Of a stretch of DNA of 64,000 bases, positions 76 to 62,300 are shown in pieces (positions within the stretch are counted from its first letter, which is position 1; each line of letters begins with the position of its first letter). Below the pieces are notes generated by a model. It was not told the DNA's origin, made no database searches, and was given only the letters and a program-made list of their open reading frames with translations. Position numbers and translations under genes: made by a program. The stretch is from Candidatus Saccharimonadota bacterium (GTDB lineage Bacteria; Patescibacteriota; Saccharimonadia; Saccharimonadales; UBA4665): contig PLTT01000007.1 in assembly GCA_003164595.1 (NCBI GenBank), forward strand, positions 1 through 64,000, given 5' to 3'.

Positions 76-261
76 CTACTTATGGTGTACTAGCCATATA
101 GTTACGCCAGTGGAAATTGCCACTAGTGCGTAAAATAGGCCAAGACCAACTGGAGAACCCCAGCTAAACCAGCTACCCCAAGCTCGCCAGTTTTTCATGT
201 TTTCCTTATGGTGCTGGTCATACCACTCCATGTCTGCCTTATTGTCTAGTTTTTCAGTCAT
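76..261 (-). CDS. Small single-pass membrane protein, unknown function
   Basis: This 61-residue protein has a charged, Trp-rich N-terminal half (residues 1-35, including GSWFSWGSP) followed by one hydrophobic segment at about 37-57 and a His-His-Lys end. It is probably anchored in the cytoplasmic membrane with a soluble N-terminal part. I do not recognise the family. It ends just before a strong terminator. There is no paralogue or partner nearby to suggest a role. Confidence 0.55.
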   Translation of the reverse strand: MTEKLDNKADMEWYDQHHKENMKNWRAWGSWFSWGSPVGLGLFYALVAISTGVTIWLVHHK

Positions 262-690: not shown

Positions 691-772
691 TATAGACAGT
701 CCGGTGGCCCTCCAATACCGGTTATGCTTAAAAGATGTCTGATTTTATAGATTTTCTTGTTATGATAAAAAT

Positions 773-1537
773 ATGCCTAAACAAATAATGCCTGCAAAAC
801 TCCGAAGGCTAAACCTAGTCGCTGGTTTTGTTCATTTACTATCTGGGATTGCAATAGTTGTGATAAGTAGAAATTTTGCAATTCCAATTTCAGGAAATTA
901 TCTTGCATATGATACAGCGACTAAAACTCTTAATCCTGCTTCAGTAACTTTATTTAATATTCAGCTACCTTGGTTAATAGCAATTTTCTTTTTCTTATCT
1001 GCTTTTTTTCATTTTATAATTGCGACTGTTTATAACAAACAGTATAACGCTAATCTGAAACTTGGCATTAATAAAGCAAGGTGGATTGAATACTCTATAT
1101 CAGCAAGTGTAATGATGGTGGCAATCGCTATATTGGTAGGAGTATACGACCTCACAAGTCTTTTGATGATTTTTGCTTTGACAGGAATAATGAATTTAAT
1201 GGGTCTAGTAATGGAGGTGCACAACCAAACTACAGAAAAGACTAACTGGCTTAGTTATTATATTGGTTGTATCTCTGGAATCATTCCCTGGATAGTAATA
1301 GCTTTTTATTTTTGGCTCAGTGCTCACAAAGGAAGTGCCGCTCCAACATTTGTTTATTGGGTTTTCGCTTCAATCTTTGTATTTTTCAGCTGTTTTGCTG
1401 TCAATATGGTTTTGCAGTATAAAAAAATTGGTCCTTGGAAAAATTACTTATATGGTGAAAGAGTTTATATTATTCTCAGCCTAGTAGCGAAATCACTTTT
1501 AGCATGGCAGGTTTTCTTTGGCACATTAAGACCCTAA
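773..1537 (+). CDS. Heliorhodopsin
   Basis: The 254-residue, seven-helix membrane protein matches the heliorhodopsin family. Helix 7 contains SLVAKSLLAW with the retinal Schiff-base lysine at K240, and helix 3 contains RWIEYSISAS with the counterion glutamate at E106. H80 and an early histidine (H21) correspond to conserved histidines of the family. Known heliorhodopsins are retinal-binding photoreceptors with an inverted topology (N-terminus inside) and long photocycles; most are not ion pumps. A TATGAT box at 761-766 sits 6 nt before the ATG, so the message is probably leaderless. No carotenoid or retinal biosynthesis gene is in the window, so retinal would come from elsewhere in the genome or from outside. 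The assignment is firm; the signalling partner is unknown. Confidence 0.95.
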   Translation: MPKQIMPAKLRRLNLVAGFVHLLSGIAIVVISRNFAIPISGNYLAYDTATKTLNPASVTLFNIQLPWLIAIFFFLSAFFHFIIATVYNKQYNANLKLGINKARWIEYSISASVMMVAIAILVGVYDLTSLLMIFALTGIMNLMGLVMEVHNQTTEKTNWLSYYIGCISGIIPWIVIAFYFWLSAHKGSAAPTFVYWVFASIFVFFSCFAVNMVLQYKKIGPWKNYLYGERVYIILSLVAKSLLAWQVFFGTLRP

Positions 1538-1539
1538 AT

Positions 1540-1660
1540 CTATAAAACGATATAAACCATATCTACGAATAGGATACCGTTTAAATGATCTACCTCATGC
1601 TGGATTGCTTGCGCTAGTAAACCTTCAAAATCTTTTTCGTGACGACGTGCGAAATATAAT
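1540..1660 (-). pseudogene. Peptide deformylase C-terminal remnant
   Basis: Downstream of the histidine kinase stop, the minus strand encodes about 40 residues containing QHEVDHLNGILFVD, the HExxH metal-binding helix and following strand of peptide deformylase. The first two deformylase motifs (GxGLAAPQ and EGCLS) are missing. The same frame continues upstream only as antisense-like noise inside the kinase 3' end, to a Met codon at 1743. I infer a decayed or truncated def gene, perhaps cut off when the kinase region was rearranged. A function is unlikely because only one of three catalytic motifs remains. Confidence 0.7.
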
Positions 1661-3676
1661 CTAGATGCATGGTATCTGAATGGTAAAAGTAGACCCTTGA
1701 TTGGGCTTACTAACGGCACTGATCCGGCCACCGTGTTCCTCAATGATCAATTTACTAAGGTACAACCCAATGCCCTTACCCTCATAATTTCCATTTAGAG
1801 CACTGGCAGCCCGGTGGAATTTGGTAAATAGTTTTGGTAGCTCAGTAATATCTAGACCAATACCCGTATCTGTAATATTGATTATTAGTTCATTCTCAGA
1901 TCGACTGGTATTCAGTTCTATTGTTCCGTTCTCTGTAAATTTAAATGCATTATCCAAAACATTTCGAAGTGCTCCCTGTAATCGCTCAATATTAGCTTTA
2001 ATCCTCACATCACCGGCGTGTTGGTTGACTACGAATTTGTCAGTACGGGTGCGGCTTAGATCTTCGGATTCCTTAATTAGCGGGTCAATGACAAGCCCAA
2101 ATGGGACTTCTTCTAACGCTAGCTGGGCACCGGATTCAATTGAGCTTATAGTAAGAAGATCTTCTACGATCTTCGAGAGTCTGTCTAAGCCAACTCTTAG
2201 GCCATCGAAAAGAGGTTTATCCTCCTCTGATAACTGAGCTTTGGAAGCAATTATTTCAGTGTAACCTTTGGCTATAGCCAGTGGCGTGCGAAGATTGTGT
2301 GAAGTAAGCATAACGAATTCTGTTTTTAGTTGATCGGCAGCTTTTAGCCTCTCTTGGGCATCAAACAACGCTTTTGTCCTGACTAAAACTATTTTTTCGA
2401 CATTTGCTTTTTCTTCACGAAGTTGTGCTTCTAATTTAGTTAAGTCATTGTTTTGGTTAAATATTTTCTCAGCACTACCACGTAGCTCTTGGTAGGACCT
2501 CGTTATTTCGGTAATGTCGGAGGCGACAATAATGTTGGCGATTCTTTCACCGCCAGCTTCCATAGATGACACGCTAATACGAATTGGTGTTAATTTGCCA
2601 TCTGCGCTTTTAACATATTGACTATCACTTGACGATAGAGTCTCCTCGTCGGTCTGGTTATTAATTTTTAATAAGATGTATTGCCAGGATTCAACTGAGA
2701 AAAAACTTTCTAATTTTTCGCTATTTGCCGACTCGGGCTTAATTCCCAATAATCGTGCGGCTTCGTTGTTTACAGAGTCAATTGTTAGATCTGGTTTAGT
2801 GATAATTACTGCCTCACTCATCGTTGCTAGGATGTTCTGCGCTAAGGCCTGTGCGTCGATCTCGAACAAATGGAACCGGAATATGCTGTAATATATGACC
2901 AACCCGGAAAATGCGCCGATCAAAGTAGCAAGCGGTGGAATTACTCCAGGTAATACGGAGGGTAGAATTTGGCTAGTAATAATTGCAACCGCAAAAGGTA
3001 TAAAGAAGGCCAACAGTACGGTCATGATTTGTTTTCTTAGGAGCATATTTTTTGTATTTTTCCAATATTGTAGCAATAATGCGTAACCGAAAATGTATAT
3101 CAGACTGAACCATGCTGCTGAAATTTCTTCATCGATAGTCCCTAGGCTGTAGTAGCCCCACGGAGCTTTATGGATATGAGGAAGAGCATGGGTGAAAAAT
3201 AGCCCTTCACCAGAGAAAAAGGCAACCACGCCCCATGCAATTATCAACAGAGCAGTCAAAAATATAAATTGTTTTTTGTAATGCCCGGTGAATGACACTA
3301 TGAATAAATAGAAGGACAGCGGTAAACCCGATAAGCCAACATAATATAGGTCTTGCCAGAATAGGGCAGCGCTTGGATGAATGCTTAGGCGCTGTAAACC
3401 TTCTGCCAGAGCCATTAAAGCTGCTGCTCCTAAGAATAATAATAACCAGGCAGTAGTAAACGAGAAGCGTTTTTTTAATATAACAATTAGAATAGTGACC
3501 AGATCAATGAATGCTGAAAAGAAAGAGACTAAAGCATAAACATTAAACTGAACCGCAAAATTTATATGCGAAGTTGTTATGTTATTTAAAGCGATGGCAA
3601 AAACAGCAATGATACCAGAGATAACTATTAGATATATTACTGATCTGTTGGCCCAACCTTTATTTTCCTGAAACAC
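1661..3676 (-). CDS. Orphan 7TM sensor histidine kinase
   Basis: The 671-residue protein starts at a GTG preceded by GAGGTGG. Residues about 5-265 form seven or more hydrophobic segments of the HisKA_7TM type, followed by a PAS domain (about 275-390), a coiled coil (about 390-440) and a complete transmitter: H-box SHNLRTPL with phosphoacceptor H460, N-box NVLDNAFKF, G1 DTGIGL and G2 GKGIGLYLSK. It should autophosphorylate in response to a membrane or PAS-sensed signal. No response regulator is adjacent, so its target is unknown. Its 3' end runs into a peptide deformylase remnant. The heliorhodopsin gene converges on it about 120 bp away; a functional link is only a speculation. Confidence 0.9.
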   Translation of the reverse strand: MFQENKGWANRSVIYLIVISGIIAVFAIALNNITTSHINFAVQFNVYALVSFFSAFIDLVTILIVILKKRFSFTTAWLLLFLGAAALMALAEGLQRLSIHPSAALFWQDLYYVGLSGLPLSFYLFIVSFTGHYKKQFIFLTALLIIAWGVVAFFSGEGLFFTHALPHIHKAPWGYYSLGTIDEEISAAWFSLIYIFGYALLLQYWKNTKNMLLRKQIMTVLLAFFIPFAVAIITSQILPSVLPGVIPPLATLIGAFSGLVIYYSIFRFHLFEIDAQALAQNILATMSEAVIITKPDLTIDSVNNEAARLLGIKPESANSEKLESFFSVESWQYILLKINNQTDEETLSSSDSQYVKSADGKLTPIRISVSSMEAGGERIANIIVASDITEITRSYQELRGSAEKIFNQNNDLTKLEAQLREEKANVEKIVLVRTKALFDAQERLKAADQLKTEFVMLTSHNLRTPLAIAKGYTEIIASKAQLSEEDKPLFDGLRVGLDRLSKIVEDLLTISSIESGAQLALEEVPFGLVIDPLIKESEDLSRTRTDKFVVNQHAGDVRIKANIERLQGALRNVLDNAFKFTENGTIELNTSRSENELIINITDTGIGLDITELPKLFTKFHRAASALNGNYEGKGIGLYLSKLIIEEHGGRISAVSKPNQGSTFTIQIPCI

Positions 3677-61011: not shown

Positions 61012-61087
61012 GGCGGCGTAGCTCAGTGGTTAGAGCACAGGACTCATAAGCCTGGGGTCAGTGGTTCAAATCCACTCGCCGCTACCA
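61012..61087 (+). tRNA. tRNA-Met (CAT), probable elongator
   Basis: Loop CTCATAA (anticodon CAT), acceptor GGCGGCG/CGCCGCT with G1-U72, encoded CCA. The acceptor and T-arm resemble Bacillus elongator tRNA-Met. The anticodon stem has an A31-G39 mismatch, as in tRNA-Arg(TCT). An Ile2 identity cannot be excluded. Confidence 0.85.
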
Positions 61088-61135
61088 TCACGTTGTTTGT
61101 TAAAGCCTTTTGGACAATAGACCCTTCATAAAGAC

Positions 61136-61161
61136 AAACACCCTCATAATAGAGGGCGTTT
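61136..61161 (-). terminator. Bidirectional terminator
   Basis: AAAC-A-CCCTC pairs with GAGGG-C-GTTT around a short loop. It lies about 50 bp past tRNA-Met on the plus strand and about 25 bp past the stop of the 30-aa peptide gene on the minus strand. Confidence 0.7.
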
Positions 61162-61183
61162 AATAAAAATTACTTAATAATTT

Positions 61184-61276
61184 TTAGATTTTGCTAAGAA
61201 TCTGATCTATCTTAGTCATGGCCTGATTGGGTAATAGCTCGAAAGACAAGCCACCCTGAGCGCTAACTGTTGTCAT
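61184..61276 (-). CDS. 30-aa peptide with strong expression signals
   Basis: The peptide starts MTTVSAQGGLSFELLPNQ and ends in an amphipathic KIDQILSKI. It has its own consensus promoter, an AAAAAAGGAGC ribosome site and a terminator, so it is a monocistronic unit. It has no membrane segment. The GG pair at residues 8-9 is the kind of site cleaved in double-glycine leader peptides, but that is speculative. Function unknown. Confidence 0.6.
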   Translation of the reverse strand: MTTVSAQGGLSFELLPNQAMTKIDQILSKI

Positions 61277-61334
61277 TTATTATTGCTCCTTTTTTATTTT
61301 TTGTAATTTTTATTTATTAGCCACAACAGTGCTT

Positions 61335-61363
61335 ATTATAATATTTTATTTATAGTAAGTCAA
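61335..61363 (-). promoter_or_regulatory. Consensus sigma-70 promoter of the 30-aa peptide gene
   Basis: On the minus strand TTGACT (61358-61363) and TATAAT (61335-61340) are exactly 17 bp apart, one of the best promoter matches in the window. It drives a leader of about 50 nt before the peptide ATG. From 61364 to 61512 I see nothing else. Confidence 0.75.
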
Positions 61364-61512
61364 TATCCGTTGTGACTTGTTTTTTGTTTTAGCTTTCGCT
61401 GTTATTAATTGTAGATTAATCCCTGCTTATATTGCAAGAAAATTATTAATGATATAACTCCGGCTGTACCTCCAGTCCCAAATGTACCTTAAGGCATAGG
61501 ATCTATTAAAAA

Positions 61513-61537
61513 AACCTCTGCAAAATTTGCAGAGGTT
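61513..61537 (-). terminator. Terminator of tRNA-fMet
   Basis: AACCTCTGCAAA pairs with TTTGCAGAGGTT (perfect 12-bp stem, one-base loop), followed by a T run on the minus strand, 10 bp past the tRNA-fMet 3' end. Confidence 0.85.
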
Positions 61538-61547
61538 ATAAAATACT

Positions 61548-61622
61548 TGGTTGCGGGGGCAGGACTCGAACCTGCGACCTTGTGGTTATGAGCCACACGA
61601 GCTGCCGCTGCTCCACCCCGCG
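61548..61622 (-). tRNA. Initiator tRNA-fMet (CAT)
   Basis: Loop CTCATAA gives anticodon CAT. The acceptor has the C1-A72 mismatch that marks initiator tRNAs (CGCGGGG/CCCCGCA), with GGAGCAGCGGCAGCTC in the D-arm and encoded CCA. Confidence 0.95.
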
Positions 61623-61705
61623 ATATCTTTGGTTAGCTAATAATATTTACTATTGATTAGCTGTGTATTTTCTATCATTTATAGTACCAAACAGAGGTAG
61701 AAATG

Positions 61706-62158
61706 TCAATTTGAATTTTGTTTATGGAGTATGAAGTCCATCCAAGCCTGTAGGTTTTTTTCATAGGATGGTTGGTTATTGCTTACAGTGGAGGCATCCG
61801 TCGCTGGACTAACTATTAGCGATAAGTGAGCCAAGGCTACATTCTTTGGCACTATCAGTTCAGTTTCCCCGAGTTGCCCAAGACCAAACTCTTGTCGAGC
61901 AGTAACATCCAGATACTGGTTAGTTCCATAATATTGATTTTGCAGCTGTTGATTAATGTTCTGTAGTTGCTGGACATTATTTTGTTGACTGAGCACTGAA
62001 ATCTGTTTTTGTAGATTATAGTTGGTCTGCAAAGCCTTAACGCCGCTCCAGCTAATAAGAAGTACGATGACCAGAAATACCAATAGCCCAATATTCTTTG
62101 GGTCACGAAGTGATTTCCAGGGTATTTGGTGATAATAAGTGTTTATTTTATTGAACAT
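61706..62158 (-). CDS. DivIC/FtsB-like septum protein
   Basis: The 150-residue protein has one helix (about 23-42), a coiled coil (about 45-80) and YLDVTARQEFGLGQLGETELIVP, the conserved end of DivIC/FtsB-family septum proteins. It would sit in the divisome. It is a monocistronic gene between two tRNAs. Confidence 0.85.
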   Translation of the reverse strand: MFNKINTYYHQIPWKSLRDPKNIGLLVFLVIVLLISWSGVKALQTNYNLQKQISVLSQQNNVQQLQNINQQLQNQYYGTNQYLDVTARQEFGLGQLGETELIVPKNVALAHLSLIVSPATDASTVSNNQPSYEKNLQAWMDFILHKQNSN

Positions 62159-62224
62159 GGGATACTCATATTATAATCTATTTGCAAATCTGATATACTC
62201 TCATCTGTTAACTATATAGACCGA

Positions 62225-62300
62225 GGGGGTGTAGCTCATCGGTTAGAGCAGGCGGCTCATAACCGCTTGGTAGTCGGTTCGATTCCAACCACCCCCACCA
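62225..62300 (+). tRNA. tRNA with CAT anticodon, probable Ile2
   Basis: Loop CTCATAA gives CAT; acceptor GGGGGTG/CACCCCC, encoded CCA. The anticodon arm GAGCAGGCGGCTCATAACC is close to E. coli tRNA-Ile2. With an fMet and a likely elongator Met already present, this is probably the lysidine-modified tRNA-Ile2 substrate of TilS, though the assignment between this and 61012-61087 is inferred. Confidence 0.8.

Follow-up and report, generated by a model that had tools for sequence, protein, structure and literature searches.

The heliorhodopsin (HeR) encoded near the start of the window, the 64,000-nucleotide stretch of DNA analysed here, is most plausibly a photoactive, non-transporting, retinal-dependent light switch or regulator that uses imported retinal and acts on a genetically unlinked partner, a reading to which we give a probability of about 0.6. 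The part of it that can be read from sequence comprises a predicted HeR fold, a Schiff-base lysine with its counterion, and the absence of retinal-making genes, of a transport hallmark and of a conserved operon partner. Taken by itself, the window gene carries modest weight, as one more canonical HeR that must rely on imported retinal. The comparison of HeRs at one syntenic slot in related genomes weighs more: natural lysine-less HeRs, all at a single genomic position close to the gene of a methionine sulfoxide reductase, would separate a scaffold role from a light role.

Features of the window (coordinates, strand, description and basis):
758-766, plus strand: promoter-like element of the extended -10 type, TGTTATGAT, with its end 6 bases upstream of the HeR ATG (sequence)
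773-1537, plus strand: complete heliorhodopsin gene, 254 aa, ATG start (PF18761 at 320 bits, PDB relatives, model and fold match)
1088-1090, plus strand: codon of E106, the Schiff-base counterion (column invariant in a 39-sequence alignment)
1490-1492, plus strand: codon of K240, the predicted retinal-binding lysine, in an SLVAK motif (column invariant in the same alignment)
1558-1647, minus strand: C-terminal part of a peptide deformylase, a remnant that includes the HEVDH motif (between HeR and kinase)
1661-3676, minus strand: 7TM histidine kinase, a converging and probably chance neighbour of the HeR (Pfam domains)

The window gene encodes a canonical heliorhodopsin

The Pfam heliorhodopsin profile (PF18761) covers the full length of the protein with 320.1 bits (E 1.1e-95; cut-off, 26.7 bits). 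In the PDB, the protein matches TaHeR (6is6, E 7.8e-82) and 48C12 (6su3, E 6e-56), with 53-54% identity to the TaHeR structures. The AlphaFold model, built from the 39-sequence alignment with a mean pLDDT of 92, contains seven long helices and an extracellular strand pair, and its best PDB match is again TaHeR (TM 0.93, rmsd 1.5). An earlier note on this DNA had described a seven-helix HeR in a reduced-genome bacterium; the open reading frame lies exactly at 773-1537, the seven helices are borne out by the model, and the host genome is indeed small (0.87 Mb) and, judged by the relatives of its HeR, of the Saccharibacteria type. The invariant columns of the alignment are N14, H21, H80, N100, R103, E106, Y107, Q215, E229, S236 and K240; the earlier note had numbered K240, E106 and H80 correctly, and H21, R103, Y107, S236 and E229 are present besides. 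Specifically, K240 lies in SLVAK and E106 in RWIEY, S236 and K240 form the SxxxK motif of TM7, and the cytoplasmic hydrogen-bond residues Q215 and E229 are conserved. The TM7 motif is SxxxK, not DxxxK, and the genome has no PF01036 match, which sets the protein apart from type-1 rhodopsins. By sequence and predicted fold, the 773-1537 product is a genuine, intact, canonical heliorhodopsin.

TaHeR, from a Thermoplasmatales archaeon (PDB 6is6, 7u55), resembles the window HeR in fold, lysine, counterion and the Ile and Phe of TM6, but differs in its archaeal owner. The basic N-terminal tail (K3, K9, R11, R12) and the homology to HeRs are compatible with an N-terminus that would lie inside the cell. 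Position 24 is an oddity: it is Ser in the window HeR and in ten related HeRs, and Gln in 54 of 67.

The gene may be read as a single leaderless unit

No ribosome-binding motif is seen ahead of the HeR ATG. Of 65 HeR genes in the order, 32 carry the same extended -10 element equally far ahead of the start codon, as against 115 of 804 other ORFs at the same loci, in a comparison that ignores relatedness and takes mechanically chosen start codons. In a separate test, a consensus promoter scan of the region, -35/-10 pairs were no more frequent than in shuffled sequence. Across the 44 most similar loci, the HeR has no conserved neighbour. This arrangement suggests that the window HeR has a putative leaderless single-gene transcript from its own promoter, and that HeRs of the order may often be read in this way, whatever their location.

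Slot homologues in relatives have often lost the retinal lysine

A search for conserved neighbours divided the HeRs of the order into set A, which includes the window HeR, and set B. The surroundings of set A HeRs differ nearly everywhere. In set A together with HeRs of other phyla, K240 is kept in 67/67 and E106 in 66/66 readable sequences, which indicates selection for the Schiff base. Set B HeRs share one slot, ProS-GreA-LysS-MsrA-[HeR]-HAD-TrmA-RsmE-PDDEXK-SerS-HPF-SecA, with not all genes present in each genome; of 99 related genomes, about one third, from many families, hold a HeR there. The link between slot HeRs and MsrA is one of proximity only.

Some set B proteins are canonical, with SLVAK. 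Among the 30 set B copies in which the position can be read, 12 have lost the retinal-binding lysine, which is replaced by Arg (four copies), Ala (two), Glu (two), and Val, Trp, Leu and Gln (one each). The lysine-less loci are L077, L078, L080, L082, L084, L087-L092 and L095; L094 joins them by a second alignment. These proteins mostly score well above the Pfam HeR cut-off, and on the best tree, whose long branches are poorly resolved, the lysine must have been lost or gained at least seven times. All 12 copies are open frames, and the extended -10 element is retained by lysine-less copies such as L078, L082, L089 and L095, which together argue against simple decay. Among these homologues an apparent covariation of counterion and lysine (raw Fisher P 0.0015) was dropped and is not claimed, because only two phylogenetically independent pairs lie on supported branches.

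We lean towards the view that in Saccharimonadales an inherited slot HeR has lost its lysine several times and persists intact, often with its own promoter, in a scaffold job that would not depend on light, and that the window copy would be a light-dependent second version outside the slot. In the window's own genome the slot (L192) reads LysS-HAD-PDDEXK-SerS-HPF-SecA without a HeR, and a second HeR hidden there was looked for and found absent.

No description of lysine-less HeR slot homologues was found in the literature searched. One rhodopsin survey retained only sequences with a TM7 lysine (PMC9601134) and another checked every candidate for the lysine motif (PMC9166423), so that under both procedures lysine-less HeRs would be filtered out. 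Type-1 rhodopsins without the lysine (Rh-noK; freshwater FArhodopsins, PMC10308929) retain the rhodopsin fold after lysine loss, as the slot homologues presumably do; they belong to another family, and, unlike them, the window HeR retains its lysine.

Retinal would have to be imported

The earlier note had seen no gene for retinal synthesis, and this holds genome-wide: profile searches of the window's own genome (95% complete) found no Blh/Brp (PF15461), no phytoene/squalene synthase (PF00494; CrtB) and no carotenoid oxygenase (PF03055; RPE65). The type-1 rhodopsin profile (PF01036) likewise found nothing in that genome, and there is no second HeR, so the host would have light sensing without light-driven pumping. 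Blh exceeds its cut-off in 0/393 genomes of the order, in a search that also gave no positive in 14 named controls and whose sensitivity is thus undemonstrated.

For Saccharibacteria with type-1 rhodopsins, a lack of blh and the uptake of retinal from neighbours have been proposed, and heliorhodopsin has been cited as a quick binder of added retinal (PMC9296517). These type-1 rhodopsins (SacRs, PMC9296517) are likewise retinal proteins in hosts without blh, but they belong to another family, have the opposite orientation and pump protons outward, and the window's genome has none. In the order, type-1 rhodopsins exceed the cut-off in nine of 393 genomes, all nine of them HeR-positive (P about 1e-5, relatedness ignored): G013, G024, G036, G045, G047, G054, G058, G075 and G116. 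Eight of them are represented in the tree, and in seven of these a HeR falls into one and the same clade, close to an Acidimicrobiia HeR.

The missing retinal genes, together with the survival of lysine-less homologues in relatives, could also mean that the window HeR has no chromophore in the cell and serves as a light-independent membrane protein. We consider this unlikely, as the non-slot HeRs keep both K240 and E106 in every readable sequence.

The converging histidine kinase is probably a chance neighbour

The earlier note had also pointed to an orphan 7TM histidine kinase whose gene runs towards that of the HeR. The kinase itself is there, with HisKA_7TM, HisKA and HATPase_c domains over their cut-offs and a weak PAS-like stretch below it, but a tie to the HeR is not supported. 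Being convergent and on opposite strands, the two genes share no operon. An orthologue of the kinase stands beside the HeR in none of 66 loci from the order and in none of the 44 most similar HeR loci; nor is there a HeR-histidine kinase fusion or a conserved pair of the two genes in either set. Kinase-like genes are rare near those 44 loci, the only one (L113) being unrelated to the window kinase. An intact peptide deformylase gene is found on contig C14, and the remnant at 1558-1647 is part of a second one, from which the HeR-kinase junction looks rearranged.

A dedicated signalling partner, in which a light-induced change of the HeR would alter kinase activity, is suggested by the adjacency of the genes and by surveys in which two-component genes turned up close to HeRs in several phyla, Patescibacteria included (PMC8612252). 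We regard it as quite improbable in view of the opposite strands and the broken deformylase between the genes, the lack of an orthologue beside any other HeR examined, the single full-length relative of the kinase in 59 other genomes (34%) and the several further kinases encoded in the same genome. As a conserved HeR partner the kinase is rejected on synteny, and it is probably a chance neighbour. The general idea of a link between HeRs and two-component systems stands in the literature (PMC8612252); for this pair it is not supported, given the convergent orientation of the two genes and the lack of conserved pairing at other loci.

The transport hallmark is absent

In the viral HeR V2HeR3, E191 of TM6 is required for proton transport and W195 is thought to form a gate with it; the equivalents in TaHeR are I199 and F203 (PMC9448325). 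In the TaHeR alignment the window HeR has I201 and F205 at these positions, so the V2HeR3-type hallmark, a TM6 Glu with a nearby Trp, is absent and the protein is predicted to be of the non-transporting type. Although the window HeR shares family and counterion with V2HeR3 (PMC9448325), it is highly improbable that it transports protons in the light as V2HeR3 does, given this replacement by Ile and Phe, as in TaHeR.

Proposed function

As a light switch or regulator, the window HeR would start as an apo-protein that takes up all-trans-retinal from the host or from neighbouring cells. Light would then isomerise the bound retinal, and a slow photocycle may alter how the HeR contacts a partner whose gene lies at another place in the genome. 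Regulatory HeRs that act on partner proteins have been published (PMC9529153, PMC9769723, PMC11109279). On the other hand, some relatives come from habitats that, going by record titles, are possibly dark (aquifer, cave, groundwater), which counts against a light switch, and light need not be the point of HeRs, as homologues in relatives persist without the lysine.

Relatives and spread in the order

The window is the beginning of a contig of 189,880 bp (C8), in a genome of 868 kb in 18 contigs. The HeR starts 772 bases from the contig end, and its upstream context is consequently missing. Its nearest named HeRs, with at most 72% identity, belong to MAGs of Candidatus Saccharibacteria and to lake MAGs without a finer name, and the tree places it in a 23-row clade made up mostly of such HeRs (support 98/87). 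Of 393 genomes of the order, 114 have a HeR, so the window HeR is not unusual for its order. Saccharimonadia HeRs with SLVAK, SLIAK and SFVAK motifs were published by Chiriac et al. in 2022 (PMC9166423); they share the host class, and no difference was found that sets the window gene apart from them. Papers of 2021-2022 had already described HeRs in Saccharimonadia, the missing blh and kinases in the vicinity of HeRs, so the window HeR is of a known kind.

Two other HeRs of the order, at L052 (G075) and L053 (G024), are near-identical in two different families and in different surroundings, which makes a recent HeR transfer likely. Upstream of the window HeR, the 63-aa ORF 499-690 has no homologue among the compared HeR loci. 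The ORF at 76-261 (minus strand) encodes a 61-aa single-helix protein (WGSWFSWGSPVGLGLF), and among the compared loci it has one homologue near a HeR, two genes away in L038 (55% over 45 aa), on the same contig as L109. Towards the far end of the window, three tRNA genes with the anticodon CAT (Met type) lie within 1.3 kb, at 61012-62300.
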